A stretch of DNA of 64,000 nt from positions 992,001-1,056,000 of the forward strand of contig NZ_ATUP01000001.1 of NCBI RefSeq assembly GCF_000420265.1. The letters are read 5' to 3'. The stretch is from Oceanicaulis alexandrii DSM 11625. GTDB taxonomy: Bacteria > Pseudomonadota > Alphaproteobacteria > Caulobacterales > Maricaulaceae. The position numbers and the translations under genes were made by a program. The notes beneath the pieces were generated by a model, which was not told the DNA's origin, did not search any database, and saw only the letters and a program-made list of their open reading frames with translations. How positions within the stretch are numbered: the first letter of the stretch is position 1; every line of letters begins with the position of its first letter. This document shows, piece by piece, positions 23,765 to 31,018 of this stretch.

Positions 23765-24586
23765 TCAGCGATTGCGTTGCGTGTCGACATTGACCCGAAG
23801 CACGCGCCATTGGGCGTAGTGTTCGGGAGGCAGAGGATAGGGCTGGCACCGGATCGCGCCACGTATAGCTTTCTCGCCCGCAACTCTCAGGAAGGAATTG
23901 GGCGAATTCATGATACGCGCTTCGTCAATCAGGCGCGGCGGAACCGACAGGCGACCATTGCGCTCCAGTCTGATTTCCATGGCTACGCGAAGGTCCATAT
24001 TGGCGGGCGCATCCGCGTTTGACCGGATGCAGCTGCTGATATGAGACGCCGCCATCGCCGACAGGCTGGCGGTCATCGCCGTGCCCGGCCCCACCTGATT
24101 GCGCGTCTCGCCAGTTTCTGCGGGACCTTGCGGCGCGGCGTTCTCACGCGACCGGTCCACCAGCTGGGACAATGCGCCCAGATCCAGGGACGGCTGTTGC
24201 GGCTCAGGCTCGCGCGGTCTCGGTGTCGGCTCGGGCTCGGGCTCGGGCTCAGGTTCGGGTTCTGTCGGGGTTGGTTCGGGTTCCGGCTCCGGCTCCGGTT
24301 CATCCTGAGGCGCTGGCGGAATGATTTCCGGCTCGGCTTCAGGCTGGGCAGGCTCAGGCTCCGGCGCGGGTTGAGGCGCGGGCGTTTCCGGCTCGATCTC
24401 GGGTTCAGGCTCTGGCTCGGGACGCGCCGCGCGCACATTCGTCTCCTGCGCCAGCGTCACCAGCTCCACCGGAACCACCATCAGCTCTTCGGTCAGGCGA
24501 CGCGATTGCGGAAACGCGATCAGCGCGCTCGCGACCAGTCCCGCATGAACGCACAGGGACAGGATGAACCCCAGGGCCTGACGCAT
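23765..24586 (-). CDS. tolA: TolA-like energy transducer
   Basis: Inner-membrane anchored protein linking TolQR to TolB/Pal. 273 residues: TM near the N-terminus ([20 protein letters not shown], with the SxxxH motif used to contact TolQ), a long Pro-Glu repeat linker (about residues 55-130, many PEPEP units), and a C-terminal TonB/TolA-like domain ([20 protein letters not shown]). The linker replaces the helical Ala/Lys domain of enterobacterial TolA, as is common in alphaproteobacteria. It is encoded by an imperfect hexamer repeat. Overall gene order leaves little doubt about the role. Confidence 0.9.
24228..24300 (-). repeat. Hexanucleotide tract in the tolA linker
   Basis: GGCTCG-type hexamers (exact at 24228-24233, 24234-24239 and 24240-24245, then degenerate copies) encode the Pro-Glu linker. 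Because the unit is six bases, copy-number change would alter linker length without shifting the frame. Confidence 0.6.
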
Positions 24587-26831: not shown

Positions 26832-27863
26832 CTAGTTTCCAAACAGATCATCATTCAAGTGTTGCGGCATGGTGAAGCCCAGATGCTCATAGGCGCGCTT
26901 GGCGGCCACACGCCCGCGCGGGGTGCGCATGATGAAGCCCTGCTGAATCAGGAAAGGCTCGACCACGTCCTCCAGCGCATCGCGCGCCTCGGCGCAGGCT
27001 GCGGCCAGCGTCTCAACGCCCGCAGGTCCGCCGCCAAAGCCCTCGATCAGGACGCGCAGATAGCGCCGGTCGAGACTGTCGAGCCCGACCGCGTCCACTT
27101 CAAGCCGCCGCAAGGCGCCGTCGGCGACCTTGGCGTCGATCTCCGGCGCGCCGTCTTCCTCGGCGAAATCACGCACCCGGCGCAGAAGCCGTCCAGCGAC
27201 GCGGGGCGTGCCGCGGGCGCGCTTGGCGATCTCGATCGCGCCATCCTCGCTCATGGGCGCGCCCAGCTTGCGCGCGGCGCGGGCGACGATGCCCGACAAT
27301 TCCTCAACCGAATAAAACTCAAGCCGCACCGGCACGCCGAAGCGGTCGCGCAGCGGCGTCGCCAGAAGGCCGGCGCGCGTGGTGGCGCCCACCAGGGTGA
27401 ACGGCGGCAGATCGATGCGCACAGTACGCGCGCTCGGCCCCTCCCCGATCACCAGATCGAGGCAGAAATCCTCCATCGCCGGATAGAGGATCTCTTCGAC
27501 GGCGGGCAACAGCCGGTGGATTTCGTCGATGAACAGGACGTCGCGTTCTTCAAGATTGGTCAGGATCGCCGCCAGATCGCCCGCCTTGGCGATGACCGGG
27601 CCTGATGTGGCGCGAAAGTTCACGCCCAGCTCTTTCGCCACGATCTGCGCCAAAGTGGTCTTGCCCAGGCCCGGCGGGCCGGACAACAGGACATGGTCCA
27701 GCGCTTCGCCGCGCCGCCCGGCCGCCTGGGTGAAGACTTTCAGGTTTGCGATGGCCGCAGGCTGGCCCACGAACTCGTCAAACGAGAGCGGACGCAACGC
27801 CTTGTCCCGGCCATCGCCGGGGTTCGCGTCTGCAGAGATGATGCGCTCGTCCGGCTCGCTCAA
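26832..27863 (-). CDS. ruvB: Holliday junction branch migration ATPase RuvB
   Basis: Hexameric AAA+ motor that drives branch migration with RuvA. 343 residues: [20 protein letters not shown], Walker [13 protein letters not shown], Walker [16 protein letters not shown], sensor 1 [19 protein letters not shown] with the arginine finger, and the C-terminal winged helix ([20 protein letters not shown]). It overlaps ruvA by ATGA. It is the third gene of ruvC-ruvA-ruvB. Confidence 0.98.
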
Positions 27864-28510
27864 CGCGCCAGCTCCTTCAGGGCCGATTTGATCACCAGCC
27901 CTTCGGTCGCATCATCGCCGAGCTGACGCAAGGCTTCCGCAGCGGCCTTGCGCGCATCGCTTTCCGCATAGCCCAGATTGACCAGCGCGGAGACGGCGCT
28001 TTCACGCATGACATTGTCCGTGCGAGACGACGTGGCGGCTGGCGTATCGGCGCCTGCAGGCGCCAGAGCGGCGGCGAGTCCGGCTGCGCCGGCGCCCAGG
28101 GACCGGCCGAGCGGCGGCGCCTTGTCTTTCAGTTCCGTGGCGATGCGTTGGGCGAGCTTTTTGCCGACGCCCTTGGCGCGTTCAAACGGCATGGGATCGC
28201 CCAGGATCGCCGAGCTTTCAATCTCGCCCACATCAATCGCATCGAGCATGGCGAGGGCGTGTTTCGCGCCGACCCCTTGCACTGATTGCAGACGGACGAA
28301 CCAGGCGCGCTCTGAATCGCTCAAGAAACCGAAGAGTTTGAACTGATCCTCACGCACATGGGTCTCGATATGAAGCGACACGGGCTGTCCCGGCTCCAGC
28401 CGGGCGAGGGTGCGCGATCCGGCGCTGACCAGATATCCGACGCCATTGACGTCAATGACGGCTTCTTCCTCGCCGACACAGTCCACGACGCCCTTCAGCT
28501 TGCCAATCAT
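27860..28510 (-). CDS. ruvA: Holliday junction DNA-binding protein RuvA
   Basis: 216 residues, tetrameric four-way-junction binder. N-terminal OB fold ([29 protein letters not shown]), helix-hairpin-helix region ([19 protein letters not shown] and [20 protein letters not shown]), a flexible Ala/Gly linker, and a C-terminal RuvB-binding domain ([20 protein letters not shown]). It overlaps both ruvC and ruvB by 4 bp. Confidence 0.97.
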
Positions 28511-29004
28511 GACGCCAGTCCTTTCATAGCGGTTCTGTGGTGAGCGTGGCAGACCGCGACCGCCAGCGCATCCGCCGCGTCCGCATCCGCCTTCGAGCCG
28601 GGCAGTAAAATCGCGATCATCGCCGCCACTTGCGCCTTTTCTGCGGAGCCGGTGCCCACGACCGACTTTTTCACGAGTTTGGGCGCGTATTCGCCCACCA
28701 CCAGCCCGGCGCGCGCCGGCGCCAGCATGGCCGCAGCCCGGGCCTGGCCCAGCTTGAGCGCGCTGACGGCGCTGGCGTGAACGAACTGATCCTCAACGGC
28801 AGCTTCATGCGGCTTGAACTGCTCAACCAGCACTTCGATGGCGTTGTAGATCACGGTCAAACGCTCCGCCATCGGCGCCTTGGGCGGCGCTTTGATGACG
28901 CCATACTCCACCAGCGACAGGCGAGAGCCTGTCTGGTCGATCACCCCCCAGCCCGTGGCGTTCAGCCCCGGATCAATGCCCAATATGCGAATCGAAGCGC
29001 TCAT
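28507..29004 (-). CDS. ruvC: Holliday junction resolvase RuvC
   Basis: 165-residue RNase H-fold endonuclease that cuts Holliday junctions. ILGIDPGLNATGWGV gives the first catalytic Asp, EAAVEDQFVHASAVSALKLG the catalytic Glu, and DADAADALAVAVCHAHH the last acidic residues. Head of the ruvCAB operon; the upstream 125 bp is shared with the divergent repeat-lipoprotein gene. Confidence 0.97.
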   Translation of the reverse strand: MSASIRILGIDPGLNATGWGVIDQTGSRLSLVEYGVIKAPPKAPMAERLTVIYNAIEVLVEQFKPHEAAVEDQFVHASAVSALKLGQARAAAMLAPARAGLVVGEYAPKLVKKSVVGTGSAEKAQVAAMIAILLPGSKADADAADALAVAVCHAHHRTAMKGLAS

Positions 29005-29129
29005 CGCTCACACCATAAGGCGCCCAGAACAAAAGGCGACCATTGCATGCACGTTCATCCGTTCAGGTCGCGTTCAGTTTTCTCCAACCCATAATGCGTG
29101 TAAGGTTTTAGTCTATGGGGGAGACGGAC

Positions 29130-29831
29130 ATGAGTAAGAAACGCAAGCTCTCAAGGCGCTCTTTTCTGACGCAAGTCGCGGGCGGCGTCACAGTGATCGG
29201 CGCGGCGGGTCTGACCGGTTGCGCGACCGCCAGCGGTCAGGGTTACACCGGTCAAACGGATGCGGATTCCGGCCCCTATGCGGACGCTGTGGGATATGGA
29301 CGCAATGGTCGGTATGGCGGCGGGCGCAACTGTACGGACGCCGATCAGGGCAATTATGCAGACCCCGCCAATCAGGGACGCAATTGCCGCGGCCAATCCG
29401 GTTACACCGATGCAGACCAGGGCCCGTACGCCGATCCGCCCGGACAGGGCCGAGGGGGCCAGCAAGGCGGGTATACTGATAGCGATCAGGGTCCGTACGC
29501 CGATCCGCCCGGACAGGGGCGTGGCGGCCAGCGCGGCGGCGGTCACACCGATAATGACCAGGGTCCGTATGCCGACCCGCCGGGTCAGGGCCGGGGCGGC
29601 CAGCGCAGTGGTCATACCGATAGCGATCAGGGCCCCTATGCGGACCCGCCCGGACAAGGGCGCGGCGGCCAGCGTGGCGGCGGTTACACCGATAACGATC
29701 AGGGCTCTTACGCGGATCCGGTCGGACAGGGTCGCGGCGGTCAGAGAGGCGGCCGGCGCGGCGGTCGTCAGTGTTCGGATTCTGATTCCGGCCCGTATGC
29801 CGATCCCGCCAATCAGGGCCGGCGCTGCTAA
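29130..29831 (+). CDS. Tat-exported lipoprotein built of acidic/GR-rich tandem repeats
   Basis: 233 residues. The N-terminus has a twin-arginine signal (KLSRRSFLTQVAGG) ending in a lipobox (GLTGC, C31), so the mature chain should be lipid-anchored after folded export. The rest is eight repeats of 19-29 residues with the core (T/S)DxD(Q/S)GxYADPxxQGR, followed by GGQRGG-type spacers; copies 3-7 are nearly identical. Cys residues occur only near the outer repeats (C68, C86, GRQC and the final GRRC). The DxDxG core could bind Ca2+. The ATG at 29130 was chosen for the Tat motif and the GGGGAG before it. The cupin gene starts 5 bp after the stop. Confidence 0.75.
   Translation: MSKKRKLSRRSFLTQVAGGVTVIGAAGLTGCATASGQGYTGQTDADSGPYADAVGYGRNGRYGGGRNCTDADQGNYADPANQGRNCRGQSGYTDADQGPYADPPGQGRGGQQGGYTDSDQGPYADPPGQGRGGQRGGGHTDNDQGPYADPPGQGRGGQRSGHTDSDQGPYADPPGQGRGGQRGGGYTDNDQGSYADPVGQGRGGQRGGRRGGRQCSDSDSGPYADPANQGRRC
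29256..29828 (+). repeat. Coding tandem repeats, eight copies
   Basis: In-frame repeats of about 66-75 bp that encode TDxDQGPYADPPGQGRGG-type units. Copies 3-7 (from 29403) are the most alike, including at silent positions, implying recent duplication or gene conversion. The first, second and last copies diverge and carry the Cys codons. Confidence 0.85.
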
Positions 29832-29836
29832 ACGAC

Positions 29837-31018
29837 ATGACCCTATCTGATGTAACGCCGGGCGTGCTGGCCGAGTTGATCGCTCCGCATGCGGCTGAAG
29901 CCTTTTTCGAGACGGTGTTCGAGACCCGGGCGCTGCACGCGCCGGGCTCGGCGCCGGATCGGTTCACGCCCCTGATCAGCCTTGCGGCGATTGACGCCAT
30001 GCTGGCCGAAGGTCTGTTTCGCGAAGGCGATCTGTCCATGGCGCGCGCCGAACCGCGCCTGCCTGACGGCGCCTGGTTGCGCGAGGATGGCCTGGTGGAT
30101 CGCGGCGAGGTCGCCCGGCTCTATCAGCAAGGCGCGACGCTGATCCTGCCGCAATTGCAGGCGCGACACCGGCCTCTTGCGGATCTGTGCCGCCAGCTGG
30201 AGGCGGACTTTTCCTGCCCGGTGCAGACCAATATCTACCTGACGCCGCCCAATGCGCAGGGGTTTCAGACCCATTACGACAATCATGACGTTCTGGTCCT
30301 GCAGGTGGAGGGCCGCAAGCGCTGGCGGCTTTATGACGCCCCGGTGGGTACGCCCTATCGCGGCGAACGCTTCACCCCGGGCCGCTTCGCCCAGACCGAG
30401 CCTCGCAAAGAGCTGGTGCTGGAGCCGGGCGATGTCCTGTATGTGCCGCGCGGGCTGATGCACGACGCGGTCAATGAGGGCGATGATCAGGCCTCGCTTC
30501 ACATCACAACGGGTCTGCTGGCGAAAACATGGGCGGACTTCCTGCTGGAAGCGGTGTCCGAAGCCGCCCTGCGCACACCCGCCCTGCGCCGGGCCTTGCC
30601 GCCGGGCTACGCCAGGGGCGCGGTCAGCCGCGAACATTTTGACGCGGCGTTTAAAAGCGCGCTGCGCGATGTGGGTCAAAATGCTGATCTTGATGCGGTG
30701 ATCGGCCTGTTCACTGACACCGCCATCACCTCGCGCCCGGCGGACACGCGCGGCGCGCTGACCTTCGGCGCGCTTACCCCGGACACGCAACTCAAACGCC
30801 GGCCGCTGATCGCATTGGAGCTCGCCGAGGATGACGAGCACATCGCCCTGGTCGCCCCTGGCGGCGCGCTGACCTTTGACAGAGACGCCGAGGCCGGGCT
30901 TGAGCGCCTGCTCTCAGGCGCAACGATCAGCCTGTCTGATTTCAGCGCCATGGACGACGCCAAGGCTCGTGATGTGATGGAGCGCCTGATCGCGTACGGG
31001 GTGGCGGAGCGGGCCTGA
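29837..31018 (+). CDS. JmjC-like cupin oxygenase (RoxA/YcfD type)
   Basis: 393 residues, cytoplasmic, of the cupin-4/JmjC family of Fe(II)/2-oxoglutarate oxygenases whose best-known members hydroxylate ribosomal proteins. The iron triad is visible: H146 and D148 in FQTHYDNHDVLVLQVEGRKR and H209 in LEPGDVLYVPRGLMHDAVNE. TNIYLTPPNAQGF precedes it, and a C-terminal winged-helix-like dimer part follows. Relatives with the same motif order act on Arg or His side chains of proteins. It starts 5 bp after a Tat lipoprotein with many GR-containing repeats, so that protein is a plausible substrate; a ribosomal protein is the other option. Confidence 0.8.
   Translation: MTLSDVTPGVLAELIAPHAAEAFFETVFETRALHAPGSAPDRFTPLISLAAIDAMLAEGLFREGDLSMARAEPRLPDGAWLREDGLVDRGEVARLYQQGATLILPQLQARHRPLADLCRQLEADFSCPVQTNIYLTPPNAQGFQTHYDNHDVLVLQVEGRKRWRLYDAPVGTPYRGERFTPGRFAQTEPRKELVLEPGDVLYVPRGLMHDAVNEGDDQASLHITTGLLAKTWADFLLEAVSEAALRTPALRRALPPGYARGAVSREHFDAAFKSALRDVGQNADLDAVIGLFTDTAITSRPADTRGALTFGALTPDTQLKRRPLIALELAEDDEHIALVAPGGALTFDRDAEAGLERLLSGATISLSDFSAMDDAKARDVMERLIAYGVAERA

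Follow-up and report, generated by a model that had tools for sequence, protein, structure and literature searches.

A JmjC-type oxygenase gene paired with the gene for a Tat-exported repeat protein: a candidate system for modifying many like sites in one protein

A repeat lipoprotein gene and an oxygenase gene in the window

The window, i.e., the whole stretch of DNA that was analysed, comprises 64,000 nucleotides of the Oceanicaulis alexandrii DSM 11625 genome (contig NZ_ATUP01000001.1, positions 992,001 to 1,056,000), and all coordinates given here are positions within it. Two genes lie side by side on its forward strand (Table 1), the first encoding a lipoprotein with a twin-arginine (Tat) signal and tandem repeats, the second a cupin of the JmjC_2 family. 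Five bases separate the stop codon of the lipoprotein gene (29829-29831) from the cupin ATG at 29837, in agreement with the 5 bp spacing given in a preliminary description of this locus. Homologues of the lipoprotein begin at the codon at 29130, 15 nt inside the open frame (29115-29831, + strand). A promoter/terminator scan returned no signal above shuffles.

Table 1. Features of the repeat lipoprotein and cupin genes (window coordinates).
Feature	Position	Strand	Basis
Tat-signal repeat lipoprotein gene	29130..29831	+	Open frame from 29115; start matches five homologues
Twin-arginine motif RRSFL	29154..29168	+	RRSF invariant in homologue alignments
Lipobox LTGC	29211..29222	+	Cys36 counted from 29115
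Repeat unit 1, TDADSGPYADAVGYGR	29256..29303	+	Unit pattern
Repeat unit 2	29334-29381; with Cys73 and Cys91 brackets 29331..29387	+	Pattern; Cys counted from 29115
Repeat unit 3	29406..29453	+	Unit pattern
Repeat unit 4	29475..29522	+	Unit pattern
Repeat unit 5	29547..29594	+	Unit pattern
Repeat unit 6	29616..29663	+	Unit pattern
Repeat unit 7	29688..29735	+	Unit pattern
Repeat unit 8	29775-29822; with Cys220 and Cys238 brackets 29772..29828	+	Pattern; Cys counted from 29115
JmjC_2 / NO66-MINA-like Fe(II)/2OG oxygenase gene, 393 residues	29837..31018	+	Pfam, alignment, fold match
JmjC_2 (PF08007) domain, residues 115-234	30179..30538	+	Pfam 4.8e-30
Predicted iron ligands His146 and Asp148 (HYD)	30272..30280	+	Alignment with NO66
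Lys161, aligned with NO66 Lys	30317..30319	+	Alignment
Predicted third iron ligand His209	30461..30463	+	Alignment with NO66

The N-terminal region of the lipoprotein contains a hydrophobic stretch along with the RRSFL and LTGC motifs. The pattern [TS]DxDxGxYADxx[GN]xGR locates eight units at 29256-29822, each 16 residues long with the form TDxDxGxYADPxGxGR and set apart by Gly-, Arg- and Gln-rich linkers. With both motifs in place and eight pattern matches, the earlier reading of this gene as a Tat-signal lipoprotein with eight repeats stands; its proposed core ending in DPxxQGR fits seven of the eight units and fails for the first, which reads DAVGYGR. No Pfam or NCBIfam model scored over its cut-off in the repeat region of the window lipoprotein, and eight homologues compared with Pfam yielded a PG-binding tail in one and otherwise no match.

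The cupin scores 104.1 bits for JmjC_2, against a Pfam gathering score of 22. Its H146, D148 and H209 line up with the H-x-D...H residues of NO66, the iron ligands of that enzyme, and K161 lines up with the NO66 Lys that binds 2-oxoglutarate (2OG). All four residues are invariant across 33 aligned sequences, and the iron triad first proposed from the window alone is upheld by this alignment. By sequence, the nearest solved structures are NO66 (2.3e-28) and MINA (1.9e-25), followed by YxbC and YcfD proteins; B. subtilis YxbC is likewise a bacterial JmjC protein (5.2e-13 to the cupin), albeit shorter than the cupin at 341-342 residues in its PDB chains. Ribosomal oxygenases combine a JmjC domain with dimerisation and winged-helix parts. 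An AlphaFold model of the cupin built with 7 sequences, of moderate confidence (mean pLDDT 66.8) and with low-confidence middle parts, was matched by Foldseek to NO66 along the chain (9.1e-25, TM 0.63, rmsd 8.7). By eye, the N-terminus of the cupin has no signal-like hydrophobic stretch, so the protein should be cytoplasmic.

The window cupin is the one clear JmjC_2 gene in its genome; a second match, at G000:C2:185250-185537, barely reaches the cut-off. Plasmid records contained no match for the repeat protein, and 41 of them carry distant cupins, with at most 32.7% identity among the matches listed (20 of 41). Elsewhere in the window, positions 23765-24586 encode what appears by eye to be a TolA-like protein with long Pro/Glu repeats, and a long + strand ORF opposite this gene is probably its mirror.

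Pairing of the two genes across genomes

Surveys covered 200 genomes of the order, 367 of the class and 299 of the phylum. Within the order, a close cupin (defined as 3.2e-78 or better, the next score being 1.7e-38) was present in 40/200 genomes, and a repeat protein adjoins the cupin at 40/40 loci. The search for the repeat protein itself returned 38/200 genomes and missed those of G177, G007 and G043, which were found on reading the cupin loci. In the class, where scores fall from 3.3e-88 to 5.9e-53 below the close cupins, 12/367 genomes have a close cupin (13 places); the repeat protein is present in 11 of these 12 and in no other genome. Close cupin (1.9e-104 or better; next score 8.5e-43) and repeat protein were both found in the same 6 of the 299 phylum genomes. 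Counting each close cupin once, 57 of 58 have a repeat partner beside them (40/40, 10/11, 2/2 and 5/5), a tally in which the 5/5 are five further named loci and a sixth, L006, is counted under G039. The genome survey proposed in the preliminary description thus bears out the conserved pairing: relatives of the cupin might have occurred mostly without the repeat protein, and the opposite was found.

Fisher tests on the order, class and phylum tables gave p values of 2e-41, 3e-20 and 1e-12, which are too small because the surveyed genomes are related. Joint absences within a genus carry more weight: cupin and repeat protein are both missing from G138 and G173 (genus g1) and from G083 and G183 (g6), and their congeners have both. 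One genome of the class (G399) has a close cupin and no repeat protein that we could find, on a contig ending 40 bases past the cupin; G086 has an intermediate cupin relative (6.9e-57) and no repeats beside it by pattern; and in G069, of the order, a weak repeat match (8.5e-4) occurs without a cupin. In G523, the second close cupin (L182, G523:C15) has upstream of it a Tat protein whose degenerate units, of the form DxDPxDPIGxG, lack the usual GR. As a control, 18 of the 48 lower-scoring cupin places of the class were fetched, two of them from genomes with the pair elsewhere (G007, G346), and 0/18 show repeats by pattern, a result that is not absolute because the pattern can miss divergent units, as happened beside several close cupins.

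In most loci, the repeat gene lies upstream of the cupin on the same strand; the order is reversed, cupin first, in G428 and G214, and the two genes are divergent in G720 and G745. In families f1 and f4, most loci have ruvC or ruvA close to the pair, and ruv genes were found near the pair in 0/10 loci from f8, f17, f20 and f132. The tested neighbours ruvC, ruvA and transketolase are lost in other families, and the pair stays. Pairs outside the ruv neighbourhood, together with the other gene orders, show that vertical synteny does not by itself account for the linkage. In the window, too, the pair is near ruvC/ruvA (26832-29004); f1 and f4 show more than one arrangement, and a functional link is not evident.

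In a quick tree of 75 cupins, all 55 linked cupins fall on one side of a branch with support 100, grouped with the unlinked L106 (G086, on a long branch) and L181 (G399), while 18 other unlinked JmjC_2 proteins fall on the opposite side. The linkage label changes three times on this tree, compared with 17.7 times in shuffles. These results bear on whether the cupin could be an ordinary ribosomal oxygenase with a coincidental repeat neighbour. Its closest solved relatives, by sequence and by fold, are indeed ribosomal oxygenases, and it resembles NO66/RIOX1, MINA53/RIOX2 and YcfD/RoxA in its JmjC_2 domain, HxD...H residues, 2OG-Lys position and fold match along the chain; NO66, MINA53 and YcfD are described as modifying ribosomal proteins (PMC6006756). 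The cupin differs from NO66, MINA and YcfD in belonging to a bacterial clade of its own, one linked to an exported repeat protein. With near-perfect co-occurrence and joint absence, a linkage that survives rearrangement, and linked cupins forming a lineage apart from the 18 unlinked JmjC_2 proteins, we consider the ribosomal explanation very improbable. The oxygenase and the repeat protein are a real, conserved pair.

In a limited look at its neighbours, the oxygenase was the only constant neighbour of the repeat gene. Among neighbours that were clustered and partly identified, no second enzyme was seen to accompany the pair constantly, and no constant protease or transporter was noticed in the same limited look. 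Co-occurrence shows shared function, not contact, and would also suit a cupin whose substrate is a third partner or a small molecule, with the unmodified repeat protein working in the same pathway by binding the product or a metal, for instance. Even without modification, the Asp-rich repeats could bind metal ions, and some repeat genes are far from the cupin. Against such a third partner, the pair is kept where the three neighbours named above are lost (with clustering that was partly read), and G202 and G428 each have several repeat loci but a single close cupin, an arrangement that fits an enzyme and its substrates better. We therefore regard a third partner as unlikely, and the repeats are very probably the substrate of the cupin.

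Selection on the repeats and the candidate target residue

Among the four middle units of the window lipoprotein (6 pairs), silent difference amounts to a pS of 0.685 per site versus a nonsilent pN of 0.042; across all eight units (28 pairs), the means are 0.711 and 0.174. Since silent difference far exceeds nonsilent difference, the units are old and held by selection, as opposed to being recent duplications. The contrast supports the earlier suggestion that selection keeps many like sites, and, along with the recurrence of the gene pair, it rules out a chance or low-complexity artefact.

Conservation was measured from two anchorings in 115 repeat proteins chosen by TDxD or SDxD plus a Tat motif; an earlier residue table was left unused, its Asp and Gly positions being fixed by the pattern. 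Anchored on [TSN]DxD, where the constancy of DxD is itself fixed by the pattern, a third Asp follows within 7 residues in 708/725 units and GR or GK follows in 683/725. Anchored from the GR end, 624 of 677 [GN]xGR matches have an Asp three residues earlier, and DxD lies at an accepted distance upstream in 622 of those 624. Three Asp per unit are nearly constant and the Arg almost equally so, the latter being replaced in places by Q, V, H, L or T. A Cys-bracketed unit is present, by pattern, in 39/115 repeat proteins. The mature repeat regions contain 13.9% Asp versus 0.4% Glu, 10.7% Arg versus 0.1% Lys, and 0.4% His, while the cupins, linked and unlinked, contain 7.6% Asp, 6.5% Glu, 7.5% Arg and 2.9% Lys.

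The use of Asp over Glu and of Arg over Lys suggests either chemistry at the Asp or Arg side chains or exact recognition of them. Asp is slightly favoured as the target, because the Arg is sometimes replaced and is missing beside the second cupin of G523; we would give Asp somewhat less than an even chance, with Arg a possible target of lower probability. The preliminary description had named Arg or His. Arg is widespread in the units and so survives as a candidate, weakened by its replacements and by the greater constancy of Asp, whereas His, at so low a frequency, is not a general target. In ribosomal proteins, the nearest characterised relatives are described as hydroxylating His (NO66 and MINA) or Arg (YcfD), not Asp (PMC6006756), which counts against Asp. 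A possible covariation between the RGE loop of close cupins and loss of the repeat Arg (G523:C15, G399) was rejected: in G428, G523:C20 and G214 the repeats have GR and the cupins next to them also lack RGE. The loop is therefore uninformative about the target.

FIH and the Asp/Asn beta-hydroxylases hydroxylate many sites of ankyrin and EGF repeat proteins, including Asp. The many-site hydroxylation of repeat proteins proposed here is similar, but those enzymes are eukaryotic and act on folded repeats, and FIH is a weak fold match to the cupin model (1.9e-9, TM 0.34).

Export and the proposed modification

The [RK]RSF Tat motif is present in 76 of 79 ORFs chosen by repeats alone; the three without it, one a partial or disrupted gene and two spurious-looking frames, were dropped. 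In the set of 115 repeat proteins, which required the Tat motif, 38 have a lipobox pattern. One homologue (L175:3358-4197, G346:C63) has five units followed by a C-terminal PG_binding_1 domain (PF01471, 1.7e-18), a fusion that points to an envelope location. At ten loci of families f20, f132 and f27 (L174-L176, L179, L180, L183, L184, L186, L187 and L217), a similar segment, L-x-D-x-(D/E/Q)-(I/V), was seen by eye ahead of the Tat signal, and the enzyme may recognise it. G720 and G745 each have, in addition, a small ORF distant from the cupin (L214:4446-4754 and L216:5001-5243) that contains TDxD stretches and an ARRGGPG segment; these ORFs have no Tat-like hydrophobic stretch and were left out of the partner count.

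Our preferred reading, which we hold to be probable, is that the two proteins are an enzyme-substrate pair in which the oxygenase hydroxylates the repeats in the cytoplasm before Tat export. The cupin would be a cytoplasmic Fe(II)/2-oxoglutarate oxygenase with a ribosomal-oxygenase fold, hydroxylating the tandem TDxDxGxYADPxGxGR units at many sites per chain, and Tat would then move the repeat protein to the envelope. Where a genome has several scattered repeat genes, a single oxygenase would act on all their products in trans. That modification comes before export, we infer; the preliminary description had argued the same from Tat exporting folded proteins, an argument that is weak here, as structure prediction for the repeat protein gave no usable model and no predicted fold (mean pLDDT 37.1 with 6 sequences). 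Tat is described as handling unstructured hydrophilic segments best when they do not exceed 100-120 residues, with export declining as length grows, and an scFv with an unstructured tail was not exported (PMC6708511). The mature chain of the window protein is about 200 residues, and disordered export is therefore a difficulty, possible but not assured.

The reaction is likely to be hydroxylation. Other chemistry on the same repeats, be it N-demethylation, oxidative crosslinking or hydroxylation toward an Asp- or Arg-derived metal ligand, would draw on the same linkage evidence; JmjC proteins are described as splitting into demethylases and hydroxylases, and BipG, a JmjC enzyme of a RiPP pathway, as hydroxylating ornithine, not Arg (PMC12707348). 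We think such chemistry improbable, given that the cupin is nearest in sequence and fold to the hydroxylases NO66 and MINA, that Lys is nearly absent from the repeats, and that the partly identified neighbours include no constant second enzyme.

BipG, the ornithine hydroxylase of biphenomycin biosynthesis, is also a bacterial JmjC protein that works on a gene-encoded peptide encoded nearby; its substrate is a short RiPP core, and an arginase acts before it (PMC12707348). Here the candidate substrate is a long repeat protein with a Tat signal, and no tailoring cluster was noticed around its gene. A multi-core RiPP precursor, its units modified and then cut out as a released peptide, would account for near-identical repeated units beside a tailoring-type enzyme, and a JmjC enzyme is known from a RiPP cluster (PMC12707348). 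This is nonetheless very doubtful: the proteins have a Tat signal and some a lipobox, the limited look at neighbours brought up no constant protease or transporter, and the PG_binding_1 fusion suits a protein retained in the envelope.

Searches of open-access papers found no description of the cupin/repeat pair, and five repeat strings had no occurrence there. To our knowledge, bacterial JmjC oxygenases have few known protein substrates, mainly the ribosomal protein uL16 and RiPP cores, and comparative genomics here names another likely kind. The consistent neighbour pairing suggests an undescribed system that modifies many like protein sites before export. More tentatively, this may be an envelope system in which one JmjC oxygenase creates many beta-hydroxy-Asp (or hydroxy-Arg) residues in repeat proteins that Tat exports and that are sometimes lipidated or wall-binding, the product being a gene-encoded, oxygen-dependent metal- or surface-binding polymer; a role in metal or cell-wall binding after export is a guess. 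The repeated motif lends itself to tests with a short synthetic peptide, and the proposal predicts many-site modification before Tat export. If it is true, bacteria would have a counterpart of the hydroxylation of repeat proteins at many sites, and a family of Tat proteins in Alphaproteobacteria, so far without a name, would gain a role.
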